The position numbers and the translations under genes were made by a program. The notes under the pieces are model-generated. The model was not told the DNA's origin. It was given only the letters and a program-made list of their open reading frames with translations, and ran no database searches. 6,722 nt of DNA from assembly GCA_021798075.1 (NCBI GenBank), contig JAJZYO010000112.1:1-6722 (forward strand). The letters run 5' to 3'. Below are positions 1 to 6,722 of the stretch, piece by piece. Every line of letters begins with the position of its first letter. Position 1 is the first letter of the stretch. The stretch is from Actinomycetes bacterium. GTDB taxonomy: Bacteria; Actinomycetota; Acidimicrobiia; Acidimicrobiales; Palsa-688.

Positions 1-1458
1 TCTAGTCCCAATGCGGTCCTTTTTCGTCCGTGCAACGAGGCCCTGAAACCCAATGGTTGGCAAACCCGCGGGGTCGTAGCCGTCACCGCGCTCGCTGGTT
101 TGGCCGTTACCGTATTGCTCGCAACCGTCGAGGTCACCGCGCGCAGCCCGAGCGTCACGGGTATGCGCACCGCGCTAGAGACTTCACTCGTCCTTACGTT
201 CGCCCTCGTTGCCATCCTCGCTTGGGGCCGGTACAGTTTGCAGCACCGCGCGGTCGACCTCGCGCTCTTTGGCGTCGTGACCTTCGTATGGGTCCTCCAA
301 CCGGCCTGGCAGGCGCTCGGTCATGCCCTGAGTGACCAAAATGGCGGCGTCTGGGCACCGACTTTCGCCCGCCTGGCGGGGGCCCTGGCCCTGGCGTTGG
401 TCACCTCCTGGCCTTACTGGTGGAGGCACCCTCGCGGCTCGGCGCGCCCCAGGAGCTTCACGCACTGGCAGCTATGGGGCGCCGCTGCGGCTGTCTTGCT
501 TGCCGCTGTCGGCGCTGTGATCGGCTTGACCGTGGCCCTAGGTGATGTCAGTGCTGCGCCCGCTGCAGCCCCGCTGACGGACGGCTTCGGGCGGTGGCCC
601 GCCCGAGAGTCCCTCGAGCTTCTGACCGCCTTTGGCTTTCTTGCGGCCGCGTGGGCATTTGCTTGGCGGGCAGACGCAGCAAAAGACTGCTTCATCGCGT
701 GGGTAGGGGTCGCGTGCGCGCTCGACTCGATCGTTTACGTCAATTACGCCCTCTTCCCCTCTCTTTCTATGCCTTTGCTTTACAGGGGGGACTACTTCCG
801 GGTGGCTGCATTGTGCGCCTGGGCAATGGCGGGCTATCAAGAGATCTCCCGCTATCAGGCCGAGATTGCTCGCATGGCACGCGTGGAGGAACGGCGGCGC
901 ATCGCTCGCGACCTCCACGACGGCCTGGCACAGGACCTCGCGTACCTGAGCTCACGCGCGAAGCTCCTAATGTCGTCGGCGAAGCCCGACGAGGCGTCGC
1001 TCTCGGACCTGGCAACGACGAGCGAGCGCGCGCTGCAGGAGTCGCGCCGGGCGGTGCTTTCGCTGACGCGCCAGTGCTCGGGGCCTCTCGACAAAGACCT
1101 CGCCAACACCGCGCGGCAAGCCGCACGCAGTTACGCAACGCAAGTACGCGTCTCGGTTGACCCCGGGGTGCCGGTCGGCCCGGACCGCAGGGAAGCACTG
1201 GTGTCGATCGTGCGCGAGGCGGTGTACAACGCGTCTCGCCACGGCTGCGCCGCGACGGCGACGGTTGAAGTCTTGCGCTCGAAGGGCGGCATGGTGCTCC
1301 GCGTGAGCGACGACGGGAACGGCTTCGACCCATCGACGGTTCCCCGGGTGGGCTTCGGCCTCGTGAGCATGGAAGAACGCTCGCGCGCGGCGGGCGGGCG
1401 CTTCGCGCTCACGTCAGCTCCCGGTGCCGGCACGATAGTGGAAGTGGAGTGGCCTTGA
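1..1458 (+). CDS. Membrane sensor histidine kinase, NarL/DesK-like (HisKA_3 type), probably 5'-partial
   Basis: Sensor kinase of a two-component system, expected to autophosphorylate on His and pass the phosphate to the adjoining regulator. The only usable in-frame start in the window is TTG at 100, but the frame is open to base 1. The upstream codons complete a first hydrophobic helix (GVVAVTALAGLAVTVLLATV) that TTG100 would cut in half, so the true start probably lies left of the window. Numbering from TTG100, hydrophobic segments lie near residues 26-42, 52-71, 90-107, 125-147, 172-189, 197-219 and 233-246, making eight with the first. The dimerisation/phosphoacceptor helix is ERRRIARDLHDGLAQDL with H273. 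The ATPase domain (about 360-452) shows the N box REAVYNASRH (N377), a G1 box DDGNGF (D405) and a glycine-rich GFGLVSMEERSRAAGG. I see no PAS, GAF or HAMP domain, so the signal is probably read within or near the membrane. The ligand is unknown. Confidence 0.93.
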   Translation, partial: SSPNAVLFRPCNEALKPNGWQTRGVVAVTALAGLAVTVLLATVEVTARSPSVTGMRTALETSLVLTFALVAILAWGRYSLQHRAVDLALFGVVTFVWVLQPAWQALGHALSDQNGGVWAPTFARLAGALALALVTSWPYWWRHPRGSARPRSFTHWQLWGAAAAVLLAAVGAVIGLTVALGDVSAAPAAAPLTDGFGRWPARESLELLTAFGFLAAAWAFAWRADAAKDCFIAWVGVACALDSIVYVNYALFPSLSMPLLYRGDYFRVAALCAWAMAGYQEISRYQAEIARMARVEERRRIARDLHDGLAQDLAYLSSRAKLLMSSAKPDEASLSDLATTSERALQESRRAVLSLTRQCSGPLDKDLANTARQAARSYATQVRVSVDPGVPVGPDRREALVSIVREAVYNASRHGCAATATVEVLRSKGGMVLRVSDDGNGFDPSTVPRVGFGLVSMEERSRAAGGRFALTSAPGAGTIVEVEWP

Positions 1459-2102
1459 GAGCTGCCAAGGTGGTTGTTGCTGACGACTACCCTCAGCACA
1501 GGGCGCTCGTCCGGGAAGTCCTCGAGGCTGCCGGTTTCGAGATCTGCTCCGAAGCAGCCGACGCCCCGACGGCCGTCGCGGCGGTACTCGAGCACCGAGC
1601 CGACCTTGCGCTACTCGATGTACGTATGCCCGGTGGGGGCGCTTGGGCTGCACGCGAGATCAAGGCCTCCAGTCCCTCGACCTTCGTAGTGATGCTCACG
1701 GTGTCCGACGAGTCAGCCGACCTCTTCGACGCGCTGCGAGCCGGCGCATCAGGCTACGTGTTGAAGGGAGGCGACCCCAGACGGATCCCTCAGGTGCTGG
1801 AGCGCGTGGTCTCCGGGGAGGCCGTCGCGCCCTCCTCTCTGGTGCAACAGATGGTAGCTACGATGCCGCGGCGGTTGCGAGCGTCACTCACCGGTGAGCA
1901 GCCCCGCCTCACCAGTCGCGAATGGGAAGTGCTCGAGCTACTGGCTGATGACTACACCACCGCGGAGATAAGCGAGCGGCTCTTCGTGGCCGAGGTCACC
2001 GTCCGGAGCCACGTCGGGGCCATCCTGCACAAGCTCGGTGTGAGAGATCGCGCCGAAGCGGTGTCGTTCCTCCTCAGAGGAAACCATCCTTGCGACTCCT
2101 GA
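1449..2102 (+). CDS. Response regulator, NarL/FixJ family (receiver + LuxR-type HTH)
   Basis: Cytoplasmic transcription regulator and likely partner of the kinase it overlaps. The receiver domain (about residues 7-122) has the acidic pair D12-D13, phosphoacceptor D57 in LALLDVRMP, switch residue T84 and conserved K106 in GYVLKG. The C-terminal LuxR-type helix-turn-helix covers about 153-210 (LTSREWEVLELL, then EISERLFVAEVTVRSHVGAI and KLGV). At 217 residues it has normal length for the family, and all catalytic residues are present. Two starts are plausible: GTG at 1449 (10-base overlap with the kinase, GGAA five bases upstream) and TTG at 1455 (TTGA junction, 4-base overlap, GGAG five bases upstream). 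Either gives a complete receiver. Its last codons overlap the start of the next gene, so kinase, regulator and secreted enzyme are probably one operon. Its DNA target cannot be seen here. Confidence 0.94.
   Translation: MALRAAKVVVADDYPQHRALVREVLEAAGFEICSEAADAPTAVAAVLEHRADLALLDVRMPGGGAWAAREIKASSPSTFVVMLTVSDESADLFDALRAGASGYVLKGGDPRRIPQVLERVVSGEAVAPSSLVQQMVATMPRRLRASLTGEQPRLTSREWEVLELLADDYTTAEISERLFVAEVTVRSHVGAILHKLGVRDRAEAVSFLLRGNHPCDS
2076..2081 (+). promoter_or_regulatory. Ribosome binding site (AGAGGA) for the GH114 gene
   Basis: AGAGGA lies eight bases before the TTG at 2090, inside the last codons of the response regulator. It supports TTG2090 as the start, the only start that gives a signal peptide, and it points to translational coupling with the regulator. 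Confidence 0.6.
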
Positions 2103-2998
2103 CCGCTTTGGCATGTGCACTTTGCCTCGTACAGCCGACCACCGCCTCGGCCACCGCAACCCGGTCTTGGTGGCGGCCGGGGCCATTGCAGTCGTGGGTG
2201 TACGTGATCGGCGAGAACTACCCGCTCACCATCCCCCCCTTAGTGGCGGGGAAGAAGACCAAGGTGCAAGCCGTAGACGCGGATCTCGGCGACCAAGACG
2301 GGCTGACGCCATCAGGGGTACCCGTGGCAGACCCTGCCATCGAGCGGTCCATCAAGGCCGTCCACGCCATGGGGGGACGTGCCATCTGTTACCTAGACGC
2401 CGGCACAGCGGAGAACTGGCGAAGTGACTATGCCAAGTTCGACCCTTCGGAACTGGGTCGCCCGCTCCCTGGTTGGCAGGGTGAGCGCTTCATTGCCGTT
2501 TCAGACTGGTCGAAACCGGTCCGCCCGCCCCACGAAACCCTCGAGACGATCATGGCCAATAGGGTCGCCCTCTGCAAAGCGGAGGGATTCGACGCGATCG
2601 AGGCCGACAACGTCGATGCCTACACTTACGGCGACCTCGGGGGCTTTAAGCTGTCCATGCGCGCAGAGGCGACTTACATCGAGCGCCTCGTCACCCTGGC
2701 ACACACCCACAACCTCGCCTTCTTCCTCAAAAACGAGGTCAACGGCGACGGTCTCATCCGACTGCTCGCTCCCCGCGTCGACGGCGAGGTCGACGAGCAG
2801 TGCTGGCAGTACAACGAGTGCGGAGCCCTCAAGGCTTTCGTACGAGAGCACAAGCCTATCCTCGAGGTCGAGTACCAAGACGTCGCCTCGACCGCCCTCT
2901 GCCCGAAGGCGCGTGCCTTCCCGATGGCAACGATCAGGACGGGCCTCAGCTTGGACGGGAGGGTCACCTTCGGCTGCTGGCAGCCCCCCGGGAGGTAG
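2090..2998 (+). CDS. Secreted GH114-type endo-alpha-1,4-polygalactosaminidase-like glycoside hydrolase
   Basis: Predicted exported TIM-barrel hydrolase of the GH114 family (old DUF297), whose characterised members cleave alpha-1,4-linked galactosamine / N-acetylgalactosamine polymers. It starts at TTG2090 with a good ribosome binding site. Residues 1-23 form a short Sec signal (MRLLTALACALCLVQ core, then PTTASATA). The mature part shows the family pattern in order: an aromatic WWRPGPLQSWVYVIG opening, a DADLGDQDG strand, AICYLDAGTAENWRSD (D103), a WxGE-like segment, GFDAIEADNVDAY (E171, D173, D176), FFLKNEV (E216), VDEQCWQYNEC (E236; C238 and C244 may pair) and ILEVEYQDV near the end. The acidic residues are intact, but I cannot say which two are catalytic. 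At 302 residues it is complete and single-domain, with no carbohydrate-binding module or anchor. It overlaps the response regulator by 13 bases. The exact substrate (galactosaminoglycan or another polymer) is inferred from the family. Confidence 0.85.
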   Translation: MRLLTALACALCLVQPTTASATATRSWWRPGPLQSWVYVIGENYPLTIPPLVAGKKTKVQAVDADLGDQDGLTPSGVPVADPAIERSIKAVHAMGGRAICYLDAGTAENWRSDYAKFDPSELGRPLPGWQGERFIAVSDWSKPVRPPHETLETIMANRVALCKAEGFDAIEADNVDAYTYGDLGGFKLSMRAEATYIERLVTLAHTHNLAFFLKNEVNGDGLIRLLAPRVDGEVDEQCWQYNECGALKAFVREHKPILEVEYQDVASTALCPKARAFPMATIRTGLSLDGRVTFGCWQPPGR

Positions 2999-3062
2999 CA
3001 CACGGCCTACTTAGTGGTGGACGCTCTCTTTGCACAGGCCGATATTGCCAAGGGCCAAAGTC

Positions 3063-3080
3063 GCTGGGCTGGCGCCCGGC
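3063..3080. terminator. Possible terminator hairpin between convergent genes
   Basis: GCTGGGC-TGGC-GCCCGGC forms a 7-bp stem (one G-T pair) with a 4-base loop in the 108-base gap between the GH114 stop and the minus-strand small gene. There is no clear T tract on either side, so it would be a U-less hairpin at best. The convergent position is what makes it plausible. Confidence 0.3.
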
Positions 3081-3106
3081 CTCTCACCCTTGCCCTTCCG
3101 CTGCCG

Positions 3107-3442
3107 TCAGGGATAGAGGCGGTTCTTCGTGCCAGAACTGGTGGACCCCTCCCTGTGGCCGCCACGTCCGCTGCCAGCCGAGTCCGGCTCCAGCAGGATG
3201 GTCCAGAGCCGAGAGAGGTGCTCGGGCAATGTATGTGCGCTGGCCGCGTCCCTCTCGACAGCGTCGCGAATGGCCGCACGGCCGTAGGCGGCAAAAAGCC
3301 AGGCGATGTGGTCCCAACCGCCCCAGCGGAGCGTAGCCAGGACTGCCGCGTCCCGGTCGGTCTCCGCGTCCGAAGGCCGCCGTTGATGGAGCTGCAGCAA
3401 CTCGATCACCACCCTCGGGATGGTGTCAACTCTGTTGGTCAT
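3107..3442 (-). CDS. Small hypothetical protein, 111 aa, mostly helical
   Basis: Not recognised with certainty. The ATG at 3442 is preferred over the ATG at 3454, four codons upstream, because GGAGG sits five bases before it. The protein begins MTNRVDTIPRVVIELLQLHQ and has a compact, probably helical core: VLATLRWGGWDHIAWLFAAYGR, AAIRDAVERD and TLPEHLSRLWTILLEP. A Gly/Ser-rich, basic, probably disordered tail of about 25 residues follows. The core (a W-rich helix, then a YGR turn and an LP..L...W helix) recalls small DUF6922-like / antitoxin-like proteins, but this is only a resemblance and no toxin partner is present. It has no signal peptide or membrane helix, so it is probably cytoplasmic. 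GC-rich third codon positions support coding. It lies 52 bases downstream of the large surface-protein gene on the same strand and could share its transcript. The opposite-strand frame over this region looks like a shadow. Confidence 0.6.
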   Translation of the reverse strand: MTNRVDTIPRVVIELLQLHQRRPSDAETDRDAAVLATLRWGGWDHIAWLFAAYGRAAIRDAVERDAASAHTLPEHLSRLWTILLEPDSAGSGRGGHREGSTSSGTKNRLYP

Positions 3443-3447
3443 GGAGC

Positions 3448-3452
3448 CCTCC
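3448..3452 (-). promoter_or_regulatory. Ribosome binding site (GGAGG) deciding the start of the small gene
   Basis: On the minus strand GGAGG overlaps the upstream ATG (3454) and stands five bases before the ATG at 3442. This makes the inner ATG the better start. Confidence 0.55.
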
Positions 3453-3494
3453 ATCGGAGGCTTGCCTGTAGTTGCACTATGCAGTTGCTGCGGC

Positions 3495-6400
3495 TCATGG
3501 TCGCAGCATGATGACGTAGTGGTGGGTCATCTTTCCGAGCGAGTTGGACGCGGTCACGTCGAAGTTGCATTTGCCCCTCCACCCCTTGGCAGGCGTGCCG
3601 GCGATCATGGCCTTCCCCTTGCCCAAGCGGGTGAACGTCAAGCCTTTCGGCAGCTTGCCGTTCGTCTTCAGGAAGGGCACCGGGTAGCCGTAGGACTGGA
3701 CCACGAACTTGAACTTCTTGCCGGCGTGGCTCGCCGGGAGCTTGGTCTTGGCAATACCCGCGGGCCGTTGCAAAGTCATCGTTATGACCACGACGGCCTC
3801 GCCGGCCGAGCTCTTGGCGACGACTCGGACGGTCTGCACCCCGGCCCATGAGGGGGCCGGCACACCGGATATGGTCGCCCAGCCCTTGTGCGCGCTCGAC
3901 CAGTGGAGGCCGGCCGCCAGCTTGGAGTGCACGAGGGTCGGCGCCGGCTGGCCAATGGTCTTCACCTGGAAGGAGAACCTCTTGCCAACCGTGCCCTTTA
4001 CTGTCTTGGGGCCAGTGAAAGAAGGTGACTCAAGGGCCGCGGTCGCCGGGCCGGTTGTCCTTGGCCCTGGCGATATGACGCTATTTGGCGCTGTAGCAGC
4101 GGGCGTCCTCGGCGCCCAGGTCACGGGCGGCACAAGTGGCACAGGGGCCGTTGTGGTGGCCGGCGCGGTTGTCGTAGTCGGCGCAATAGTTGCCGTGGTC
4201 GTTTGCGGCACCGTGGTCGTAGTCGGCACAGTAGTGCTCGTTGGGGTGGTCGTAGTCGGCACAGTAGTAGTGCTCGTGGTCGTGACCGGGACCGTAGTCG
4301 TCGTGGTCGTGGTCTCTTCCGTGCCGCTAACCGTCACGGTGAGGTCCTCGACCGCCTGACCGGCCGTGTTGGAAGCGGTTACCACGGTCCTGAACGAGCC
4401 TGCGGCAGCCGGCGTCCCGGCCAGAGTGGCCGTCCCGTCACCGTTATCGGTGAAAGTGAGGCCGGCGGGGAGCGTGCCGGTAAGGCTCAATGAGGGGTTC
4501 GGCGTGCCCGTGGCCTCCACGGTGAAGGAGCCCGGAGCGCCTTTGTGGAAGGTCGCCATGGTGGGGCTTGTGAACGCCGGCACGGTGCCGGCATTAACAT
4601 CGAGCGTGAATAACTGCTGGACGCTCCCATAGCTATTTGTCGCCGTGATGGTGATGTCGTGCGTGCCGACGTCATCGCTGCTCGGGGTGCCCGATATCGT
4701 CGCCGTAGCGTCGCCGTTGTCTTGGAGCACGATGTCGCTGGGCAGTCCGCTCTGGGCGAAGCTGACGGCAGGGTAGCCGCCGGTCGTGACTTCGAAGTGG
4801 AACGGCGTGCCAGCGATTGCACTAACGCTGCCCGCGCTGGTGAACGTCGGCGCTTGGCCGACCACGACCGACCAGTTGACCGTGGCGTCGGGGTATATCC
4901 CGTTGCTCGCGCTGAGCGTCAGGGGGTACGTGCCCACAGGCCCCGTCGGGGCCCCCGAGAGGAGCGCGGTGCCACCGCCATTGTCTGTAAAGGTCAGGCC
5001 CGCAGGAAGGGCCGCGCTCTCGGTGATCGCCGGCGTCGGGTGGCCACTTGCTACTACAGCCACGCCACCCATCTGGCCGAGCGTGAAGTCGGCTACTGGC
5101 AAAGACGTGAAGACCGGCGCCGCGGCCGGGTCAACTGTGATGGTGAGGCCCAGCGTGGCGGTGCTGTTGTCCAGGGGGTTGGTAGCAGATATGCCGACCG
5201 GGTACGTGCCTTCGGAGCCGGTAGCTGGGGCCCCCGCGATCGTCCCCGTGCCGTTGCCGTTGTCGGTGAAGCTGAGCCCGCTCGGGAGGGTGGCGGCGGT
5301 GTCGGTCAGGGTCAGCGTCACCGGGTAACCGGTCGTGGTGATGTTGTAGGTGCCCGCAACGGTGGTAGTGAACGTGGTGGCTCTCGGGCTGGTGATCGTG
5401 GGGGCTTCACTGCTGGTGAGCGTGAAGCCTTGGGTGATAGACCCAGACGTGCTGGTGGCTGTTATCACCAAGGGGTAGCTCCCGCCCGAACCGATTGGGG
5501 CAGTGCCGGCGATGATGGCGGTCCCATTGCCCTTGTCAGTGAAAGTCAGCCCAGCCGGGAGGGCCCCGGACTCCGTGATGGCGGGGGCCGGCTCGCCGGT
5601 GGTGACGACGTCGAAGGTAAAGAAGGTCCCCACGTTGGAGACGGCCGCCGCCGCACTGAGGATGACGGGCGCCACGTGCAGAGAAAGCACCACGCTGTCA
5701 CCGGTTCCCAACGTGACCCACGCCGAGACCTGCCCACCGTAGGAAGTGCCGAATGGCGCCCCGTGTTCAGTGGTCCCCAGGGGCGCCGTGATAGGGACAG
5801 CCACGGGCGCCCCGGTGTTGGTCACCGTCACGGTCCCGTTGGTCTCGGTGGCCGTGACCCCTGTGCCGGTCTGGGAAGTGGCCCACGCAGCCTGCTCAGC
5901 CAGTGTCTCGGCGTCGGTGGCGTCGGTCATATGGACCAGTGGGCTGTTGGCTTGGTACCAGGTGTTGTACTGGCCCTGCATGTTGCTGATGAGGTCGAGG
6001 ATCGTGTAGCCGTAGTCGGCCCCGTTCTCCGTGGCCGGCCCGGTCAGGTTGGACTGATGAGCGAAGCCAACCCTCGGGTCGCCGGCGAGGACGTGGCCCA
6101 GCATTATGGAGGACTCCGATGCCAGCACGTCGGCTTCGCTAGCAGGCGCGCTCAGGCAGGCAGTGGTGCTCGTGCCCACGCAGTGCCCGAGCTCTCCGTT
6201 GCCGATGGGTACGCCGTACTGCACGTAAAGCGTGTTGTACTCGTTCAGCTCCTCCGGCCAGTTCGAGGCGTTGTAGTAGATGTTGGACGGGTACCTTGGC
6301 GCGGCGATAGCGCCGCCGATCGTGTAGGGCCCCGGCTGCCTGGAGGCGTCACTGCCGAACACTTTGATCCCAGTAGCAGCGAACGCAGCGGCGCTGTTGG

Positions 6401-6722
6401 GGTTCTCCAGCCCCGAGTGCTCGCCGGACACAACGACGCTCGGGTCGTAATTGCTGAGCCCGTTTGCCGCCGCGAACGCCTGGTCCAACCCGATCTCCTG
6501 CTCGATGGATGGGCCGGGTGAAGGGGCAGCCGCGGGGAGCCAGCTGCCCGCTGTCGAGGCGCAGTCGATCCCTGGGTCCGTGGCTGTCGGGAAGGTGTCC
6601 GCCGAGCCCGGTGGGCCCGCGGGTGCCTGGGAGCCGGTGTCGACGTAGGCGTAGGTGGTTGACAGCGTGGCACCGTCCTGCTCGGGCACCTGAGCGATCA
6701 GGCCGTAGCTGGAAGAACCGGG
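3495..6722 (-). CDS. Large secreted/surface protein: Agd3-like deacetylase region + 5 putative-Ig modules + Thr/Pro linker + 2 Lys-rich Ig modules (5'-partial)
   Basis: The frame is open to the right edge (1075 codons visible). The first in-frame start, GTG at 6689, lies inside what looks like a continuing domain, so the N-terminus, with any signal peptide, is missing. Numbering from that GTG, residues about 60-335 resemble Agd3/CE18-type polysaccharide deacetylases: VVVSGEHSGLENP (H91), GIKVFGSDASR, APRYPSNIYYN, ELNEYNTLYV, then LGHVLAGDPRVGFAHQSNL (H211) and a helix ending in QYNTWY. The two His motifs may be metal-site elements, and the acidic first motif of such enzymes would lie beyond the edge. 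Residues 340-787 are five putative-Ig (He_PIG-like) modules with the recurring core LPAGLTFTDNGDGTATLAGTP. Residues 791-858 are a Thr/Pro linker. Residues 887-1063 are two more modules, very lysine-rich. There is no LPXTG motif or C-terminal membrane helix. It probably acts outside the cell on a glycan. Coding and the Ig array are secure; the deacetylase call is moderate. Confidence 0.85.
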   Translation of the reverse strand, partial: PGSSSYGLIAQVPEQDGATLSTTYAYVDTGSQAPAGPPGSADTFPTATDPGIDCASTAGSWLPAAAPSPGPSIEQEIGLDQAFAAANGLSNYDPSVVVSGEHSGLENPNSAAAFAATGIKVFGSDASRQPGPYTIGGAIAAPRYPSNIYYNASNWPEELNEYNTLYVQYGVPIGNGELGHCVGTSTTACLSAPASEADVLASESSIMLGHVLAGDPRVGFAHQSNLTGPATENGADYGYTILDLISNMQGQYNTWYQANSPLVHMTDATDAETLAEQAAWATSQTGTGVTATETNGTVTVTNTGAPVAVPITAPLGTTEHGAPFGTSYGGQVSAWVTLGTGDSVVLSLHVAPVILSAAAAVSNVGTFFTFDVVTTGEPAPAITESGALPAGLTFTDKGNGTAIIAGTAPIGSGGSYPLVITATSTSGSITQGFTLTSSEAPTITSPRATTFTTTVAGTYNITTTGYPVTLTLTDTAATLPSGLSFTDNGNGTGTIAGAPATGSEGTYPVGISATNPLDNSTATLGLTITVDPAAAPVFTSLPVADFTLGQMGGVAVVASGHPTPAITESAALPAGLTFTDNGGGTALLSGAPTGPVGTYPLTLSASNGIYPDATVNWSVVVGQAPTFTSAGSVSAIAGTPFHFEVTTGGYPAVSFAQSGLPSDIVLQDNGDATATISGTPSSDDVGTHDITITATNSYGSVQQLFTLDVNAGTVPAFTSPTMATFHKGAPGSFTVEATGTPNPSLSLTGTLPAGLTFTDNGDGTATLAGTPAAAGSFRTVVTASNTAGQAVEDLTVTVSGTEETTTTTTTVPVTTTSTTTVPTTTTPTSTTVPTTTTVPQTTTATIAPTTTTAPATTTAPVPLVPPVTWAPRTPAATAPNSVISPGPRTTGPATAALESPSFTGPKTVKGTVGKRFSFQVKTIGQPAPTLVHSKLAAGLHWSSAHKGWATISGVPAPSWAGVQTVRVVAKSSAGEAVVVITMTLQRPAGIAKTKLPASHAGKKFKFVVQSYGYPVPFLKTNGKLPKGLTFTRLGKGKAMIAGTPAKGWRGKCNFDVTASNSLGKMTHHYVIMLRP
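3501..4031 (-). repeat. Two C-terminal lysine-rich putative-Ig modules
   Basis: Modules at 3774-4031 and 3501-3755 keep the same fold signature (QPAPTLVHSKLAAGLHWS with a GVPAPSW turn; YPVPFLKTNGKLPKGLTFT with a GTPAKGW turn) but differ sharply in charge. About 20 Lys and 6 Arg stand against three acidic residues, a strongly positive end. They finish the protein with no sorting signal, so they could hold it to an anionic wall polymer or glycan by charge. Confidence 0.75.
4116..4319 (-). repeat. Thr/Pro-rich low-complexity linker
   Basis: Residues 791-858 are almost entirely Thr, Pro, Val and Ala, starting EETTTTTTTVPVTTT and repeating VPTTTT-like units. This is a flexible, probably extended and possibly O-glycosylated spacer between the neutral/acidic Ig modules and the basic C-terminal pair. 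Its DNA holds internal direct repeats, described separately. Confidence 0.85.
4213..4268. repeat. 23-bp perfect direct repeat in the Thr/Pro linker
   Basis: The same 23 bases occur at 4213-4235 and 4246-4268, 33 bases apart, which is exactly 11 codons and keeps the frame. A degenerate third copy begins at 4171, a further 45 bases away (15 codons). After the second full copy an extra AGT triplet appears relative to the first. This pattern fits replication slippage or unequal exchange changing linker length. Confidence 0.75.
4329..5672 (-). repeat. Five tandem putative-Ig (He_PIG-like) modules
   Basis: Five modules of about 84-91 residues at 5415-5672, 5133-5405, 4860-5120, 4596-4853 and 4329-4580. 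Each opens with APxFTS or a variant (VPAFTS, APTFTS, APVFTS, APTITS, APVILS), has a G-P-A aromatic strand, and then a diagnostic core of the type LPAGLTFTDNGDGT, followed by a GTP/GAP turn and an ITATN or VTASN strand. They are typical stalks or adhesive modules in secreted bacterial proteins. They contain almost no basic residues (two Lys and two Arg in the whole stretch). The fourth copy is the most divergent in its core (GLPSDIVLQDNGDAT). Confidence 0.85.
5685..6512 (-). other. Agd3-like (CE18-type) polysaccharide deacetylase region of the large protein
   Basis: Residues about 60-335 of the visible protein. From memory of actinobacterial relatives, the string of motifs fits: GEHSGL, a GI..(F)GSD.SR turn, PRYP.NI.YN, an EYN..Y helix start, and H.LAGDPR..F.HQSNL. 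Two cysteine residues (C170, C178) bracket a short insertion, GHCVGTSTTACL, and could form a disulfide. Any carbohydrate-binding domain and the first metal-binding Asp of such enzymes would lie to the right of the window. This call is an inference from motif pattern, not from an alignment. Confidence 0.5.

Follow-up and report, generated by a model that had tools for sequence, protein, structure and literature searches.

A probable PelF/Agd3-type exopolysaccharide locus with a GH114 enzyme in an actinobacterium

Homologues of Agd3, the carbohydrate esterase family 18 (CE18) deacetylase of Aspergillus fumigatus, were described by Bamford et al. (2020) in 45 bacterial species, Actinobacteria included, and in 30 of the 35 bacterial species in their tree agd3 was part of an operon of predicted carbohydrate-active enzymes or close to one (PMC7229062). 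A bacterial origin of the fungal galactosaminogalactan cluster is an idea already in print (PMC7229062). Here we analyze a 6,722-bp stretch of DNA (the window; GenBank assembly GCA_021798075.1, contig JAJZYO010000112.1, positions 1 to 6,722) from an actinobacterium, probably of soil or peat, in which a glycoside hydrolase family 114 (GH114) gene stands beside a gene for a large Agd3-like protein. We consider it likely that these genes belong to a PelF/Agd3-type exopolysaccharide locus that makes, deacetylates and cuts a sticky amino-sugar polymer resembling the biofilm polymer of the mould Aspergillus, and the locus is a further well-supported case of the bacterial gene sets described in 2020.

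Like the bacterial agd3 operons of Bamford et al., the locus encodes a CE18 deacetylase, a cytoplasmic glycosyltransferase, a multi-spanning membrane protein and a GH114 enzyme; it differs from them, as far as their description in the text allows comparison, in a fibronectin type III (Fn3)-like insert between motifs CM2 and CM3, a long immunoglobulin (Ig)-like tail and a GH114 gene accompanied by a two-component system. In the open-licence PubMed Central literature that paper was the prior report of the combination, although the two-component link, the insert and the membrane family were not used as search terms. As presented in the sections of PMC7229062 and PMC9030451 drawn on here, the A. 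fumigatus cluster (Gtb3, Uge3, Agd3, Ega3 and Sph3) likewise has Agd3 and GH114 as neighbors and combines a synthase, a membrane part, a secreted deacetylase and a hydrolase, whereas the present locus is bacterial, has separate PelF and membrane protein genes and has no epimerase gene recognized on its contig. The pelDEADAFG operon of Bacillus cereus, in the sections of PMC7112168 used, shares with it a PelF synthase, a secreted deacetylase and a divergent glycoside hydrolase gene beside the operon. However, the deacetylase here is CE18 rather than PelADA, the hydrolase is GH114 rather than PelA-type, and PelG was not found (0 of 15 genomes). The type of deacetylase and the failure to find PelG are our grounds for not regarding the locus as a pelDEADAFG operon. 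According to the excerpt of PMC13254593 consulted, PelADA is structurally near Agd3 and was placed by its authors outside the existing carbohydrate esterase families.

The contig carrying the window (L002) is 16.6 kb long, in a genome of 4.7 Mb that is 89% complete, and runs in the opposite direction, so that window position w corresponds to contig position 13477-w. The genes follow one another in the order PelF, membrane protein, Agd3-like protein, GH114, response regulator and histidine kinase, with a GNAT acetyltransferase and a methyltransferase farther away. The genes and domains central to the argument are as follows.

L002:2204-3745, outside the window, same strand as and upstream of the Agd3-like gene: PelF-type GT4 glycosyltransferase, 513 aa (NF038011; DUF3492 and Glycos_transf_1)
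L002:3742-5187, outside the window, same strand as and upstream of the Agd3-like gene: membrane protein, 481 aa, with the motif DPLEIAxxLExxG
3495..6722, minus strand (L002:5201-9982): Agd3-like CE18 deacetylase, 1593 aa, secreted; the window holds residues 519-1593 and the gene is open at its edge
5691..6515, minus strand: residues 588-862, covering the second half of the carbohydrate esterase (CE) domain and the C-terminal beta domain (6nwz profile alignment, 40-row conservation)
2090..2998, plus strand (L002:10479-11387): GH114 endo-alpha-1,4-galactosaminidase-type enzyme, 302 aa (PF03537)

The membrane protein gene overlaps the PelF gene by 4 bp, covering its stop codon, and ends 13 bp before the start of the Agd3-like gene, which is preceded by AGGAGG; the Agd3-like and GH114 genes are arranged tail to tail.

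Homology of the large protein to Agd3 is hidden from single-sequence searches. In Pfam, Agd3_CE (E 0.077 for the window part, 0.16 for the full protein) and CBM87 (E 0.071, full protein) stayed under cut-off, and phmmer against the Protein Data Bank (PDB) gave five matches, all to filamins on the Ig-like repeats, with no significant match to Agd3; taken alone, these searches would have led us to reject the deacetylase wrongly. A family profile brings out the homology (E 5.1e-10, and E 2.9e-19 when the whole chain is compared with 6nwz). Against 6nwz, the best profile stretch comprises the carbohydrate-binding module and CM1 (i-E 5.7e-15), and the stretches for the CE and C-terminal domains are collinear with 6nwz, though individually not significant. 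Residues D283, D284, H412, H416, R661 and H740 align with Agd3 D377, D378, H510, H514, R613 and H668, so that motifs CM1 to CM4 are represented by the Asp base, the Asp-His-His metal triad, the CM3 Arg and the CM4 His (roles according to the section of PMC7229062 dealing with catalysis). The base-coordinating R661 lies at 6294-6296 and the catalytic acid H740 at 6057-6059; CM1 and CM2 fall outside the window, farther along the contig. The full set of six residues is retained in 37 of the 40 rows of the alignment, including the copy studied here, and the three exceptions are two paralogues and a copy with a broken frame (L034). An AlphaFold2 model built from the diverse 40-row alignment (a 24-row alignment of close homologues gave a pLDDT of 55) has the three-domain CE18 fold of CBM87, CE and C-terminal beta domain, and Agd3 was the best match by a clear margin among the fold matches listed.

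A first-pass annotation, made from the letters of the window, had placed an Agd3/CE18 deacetylase in the N-terminal part of the large protein and a secreted GH114-type enzyme at 2090-2998. The former is borne out by family profile and fold: the predicted structure matches Agd3, and the region 5685-6512, on which the call had been staked, matches by both means and spans the latter half of the CE domain together with the C-terminal beta domain. Profile searches agreed with it for GH114, which was over cut-off, and for CE18 with the family profile, but not with single-sequence Pfam. The GH114 call holds equally: the protein scores 172.3 bits against PF03537 (cut-off 27), begins with an apparent signal peptide as judged by eye, and has the two Ega3 entries 6oj1 (E 2.3e-25) and 6ojb as its best solved relatives. 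Its D173 (2606-2608) and E236 (2795-2797), both invariant in a 28-row alignment, align with Ega3 D189 and E247, the nucleophile and the acid/base in the part of PMC12054363 that assigns them (chain index offset by 41, counted by hand on the alignment). The catalytic residues are conserved between the two; Ega3 is fungal, and the substrate of the bacterial enzyme is a predicted one. This is the sole PF03537 match in the genome.

A second Agd3 paralogue, 45% identical, occurs at L013:16898-22240 and L038:1979-5569; in L013/L037 it stands in tandem and has its own GH114 gene downstream. Its CM2 reads HTYDT instead of HTWSH, which removes the second metal-binding His, so that this protein may either have become a pseudo-deacetylase or bind the metal through a different ligand. 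The Agd3 genes at L045:9446-10672 and L034:7544-11931 are broken over several frames, through decay or sequencing errors.

The first-pass annotation had taken the pair for a remodelling locus, and the deacetylase and the GH114 enzyme are indeed present; however, that description was incomplete, as the PelF-type transferase and the membrane protein upstream make it a synthesis locus as well. Both came to light among the flanking genes, and no epimerase was recognized on the contig. PelF scores 186.9 bits against NF038011, for which the equivalog cut-off is 100, and has the domains DUF3492 and Glycos_transf_1. Averaged over its family, the membrane protein shows ∼12 hydrophobic stretches behind a conserved N-terminal motif; its single sequence gives 8 under a stricter threshold. 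Neither its 28 family members nor six further proteins had a Pfam family over cut-off, and nothing convincing was found among solved structures, the best match being a designed protein (E 0.042). A hydrophobic open reading frame (ORF) follows PelF in all five class genomes with Agd3 (see below), and in more distant loci with a similar N-terminal motif by eye. We infer that the membrane protein is the export partner of PelF. PelG (PF16933) was not found in 15 genomes, several of them incomplete (12 with Agd3, three with PelF only), whereas the control, Thermotoga maritima, matched; it was over cut-off in 2 of 149 genomes of the phylum. The membrane protein profile found nothing in a two-sequence PelG alignment, a weak comparison that a very distant relation to PelG may escape; a short stretch in which the two families look alike was noticed by eye, and we do not put it forward as homology. 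The c-di-GMP receptor PelD (PF16963) was found in none of 16 genomes, nor did it match in any control genome. We tentatively suggest that these loci might represent a synthase-dependent system distinct from Pel, in which PelF would work with this unnamed membrane family (∼12 helices behind the motif DPLEIAxxLExxG, and without any relation to PelG that we could detect). The family would provide the route of export, and a CE18 enzyme with an Fn3-like insert and an Ig-like tail would deacetylate the polymer on the outside of a cell bounded by one membrane. A genome of the same taxonomic order (G308:C11:140833-143205) has PelF over cut-off adjoining GH114 and no Agd3 match, and is possibly a variant with another deacetylase.

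In the mechanism that we propose, the cytoplasmic PelF-type transferase would polymerize an N-acetylated amino sugar, most likely N-acetylgalactosamine (GalNAc), through alpha-1,4 linkages, and the membrane protein would export the chain. The secreted CE18 enzyme would bind the polymer through its CBM87-like domain and strip N-acetyl groups at its Asp-His-His metal site, leaving a cationic, sticky polymer, while its tail of Ig-like repeats probably keeps it at the cell surface or in the matrix. The secreted GH114 enzyme, presumably sharing this substrate, would cut deacetylated stretches and so trim or release the matrix. It is rather unlikely that PelF and CE18 handle some other N-acetylated chain, such as one containing N-acetylglucosamine or uronic acid, with the specificity of GH114 shifted to suit, given that three families each tied to galactosamine or GalNAc polymers co-occur and that Agd3 is the best fold match listed by so clear a margin.

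Co-occurrence was examined in three overlapping samples: 296 genomes of the class, 61 relatives, and 21 genomes reached through 23 named loci, the latter count omitting L027 and L035, which are second contigs of isolates already included. The genome studied here (G000) and G049 are in both the class and the relatives samples, and G022 and G028 recur among the named loci. Agd3 matched 15 of the 296 class genomes, and 10 were dropped for matching only positions ∼756-963 of the profile (its C-terminal part, on Ig-like repeats), leaving G000, G049, G099, G200 and G249, with the G049 copy weak and split over frames. GH114 was present in 31 of the 296 and PelF over cut-off in 8, yet both were in all five Agd3 genomes and on the same contig as Agd3, at distances of 539-3081 bp for GH114 and 0-3745 bp for PelF (Fisher p = 9.3e-6 and 3.1e-9, respectively, uncorrected for kinship). 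Among the relatives, all five genomes with Agd3 were among the eight with GH114 (Fisher p = 9.4e-6), the pair lying on one contig in G000, G022 and G049; in G010 and G028, whose genomes are fragmented, the two genes fall on separate contigs. GH114 was also found in 19 of the 21 named-locus genomes, and the expectation that the pair would recur in relatives is thus confirmed. Of the 23 named loci, many of which are contig ends, 12 contain PelF, 10 the membrane protein (by profile) and 6 GH114. Ten loci have 10 kb on both sides, and four of these (L013, L024, L034 and L033, the last from Streptomyces pacificus and with the whole module) have PelF and GH114 while six have neither; we therefore conclude that the module is real and that the gene also occurs alone.

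The overlap of the GH114 gene with a two-component system could point to a different affiliation. Two genes of the window are concerned.

1449..2102, plus strand (L002:11375-12028): NarL/LuxR-type response regulator, overlapping the kinase gene by 10 bp and the GH114 gene by 13 bp
1..1458, plus strand (L002:12019-13488): sensor histidine kinase (HisKA_3/HATPase), start codon 12 bp upstream of the window

The GH114 gene starts with TTG, and its start overlaps the regulator stop by those 13 bp; because the three genes overlap, the two-component system probably controls GH114 in this strain. The enzyme could then be functionally part of that operon and serve offence or scavenging on galactosamine polymers of neighbors (fungi or other bacteria), with the proximity of agd3 secondary; its strand, opposite to agd3, and its presence in 26 class genomes without Agd3 would fit. 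We nevertheless find this improbable. A kinase at E 1e-40 was found in only 2 of the 61 relatives, this genome included (the other match is 35% identical), and no relatives of the kinase were found beside other Agd3 loci, whereas GH114 is at most 3.1 kb from Agd3 in all five class genomes, with varying orientation. The linkage of GH114 with Agd3 is therefore the conserved one, and the two-component system, which the first-pass annotation had rightly noted at the locus, is a local feature rather than a conserved partner. Weak response-regulator matches (25-53 bits) occur in L031, L032 and L041.

Several observations weigh against the exopolysaccharide reading. Two other genomes of the same genus are without Agd3 and without GH114, so the locus is patchy. 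L014 and L029, 2 of the 21 Agd3 genomes, have no GH114 match. The six full loci mentioned above (L015, L017, L018, L021, L026 and L030), all Streptomyces or Kitasatospora, carry an Fn3-inserted Agd3 whose surroundings, to a distance of 10 kb, contain neither PelF nor the membrane protein nor GH114. Each of the six genomes does have GH114 at another place, and in rough scripted gene calls these Agd3 copies shared conserved neighbors only between pairs of closely related strains. In the locus studied here, GH114 is transcribed toward the synthesis genes from an operon of its own, and the contig ends ∼2.2 kb upstream of pelF. Finally, the 12 GalE matches in the genome are all under cut-off (best 163 of 262 bits), a result that is not decisive as to the source of UDP-GalNAc. 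The pair as a galactosaminoglycan-type locus is still supported, with corrections as to synthesis, the two-component system and unlinked copies.

If the exopolysaccharide reading is right, cationic galactosamine-type biofilm polymers would be tied to a lineage of actinobacteria that, in the data used here, comes mainly from metagenomes of bogs and fens. The locus bears on whether the fungal galactosaminogalactan cluster derives from bacteria, and as a clean example it opens the bacterial side of that story to testing. Its PelF/CE18/GH114 module is compact, PelG was not found with it, and it could serve as a simple bacterial setting for tests of polymer export and deacetylation. Proteins whose source records give no more specific label than "putative Ig domain-containing protein" or "hypothetical protein" were also recognized as CE18 relatives.

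The remaining parts of the large protein, all on the minus strand, are an insert and a tail.

6597..6722: in-window end of the Fn3-like insert (insert ∼residues 430-560; alignment rows, mostly beta in the model)
3498..5681: tail, with He_PIG Ig-like repeats at ∼4335-5681
∼4017-4334: Thr/Pro-rich linker, read from sequence
∼3498-4016: two further Ig-like repeats

The insert, of ∼130 residues between CM2 and CM3, has no Fn3 match in Pfam; we call it Fn3-like from its sequence and its predicted structure. Of the 39 rows in the tree, 33 have the insert and six (L032, L033 and L041-L044) lack it, a single change on the tree (SH-aLRT 100), with the caution that this is a quick tree in which long branches meet. 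The tail comprises seven He_PIG (PF05345) stretches and the linker. That the protein is mainly a surface adhesin with a vestigial deacetylase part, as the long tail, the unlinked copies in the six Streptomyces/Kitasatospora genomes and the metal-binding His lost from the L013 tandem paralogue and its L038 counterpart might suggest, is very improbable when the catalytic set is complete in all rows but the three exceptions already named. Similar Ig-like repeats occur in a second protein of the same genome (G000:C150:15483-16286). Two contigs titled Melainabacteria (L016) and Dormiibacterota (L024) have Agd3 genes that fall among actinobacterial tree rows, through transfer or misbinning.

Between the deacetylase and GH114 genes lies a 115-aa ORF (3107-3454, minus strand) with a weak DUF6922 match under cut-off (E 0.038). 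The window differs from the contig copy at 11 bases, three of them its first three and eight elsewhere in the 6.7 kb, and these differences change one residue each in the edge codon of the kinase, a small ORF and the large protein.

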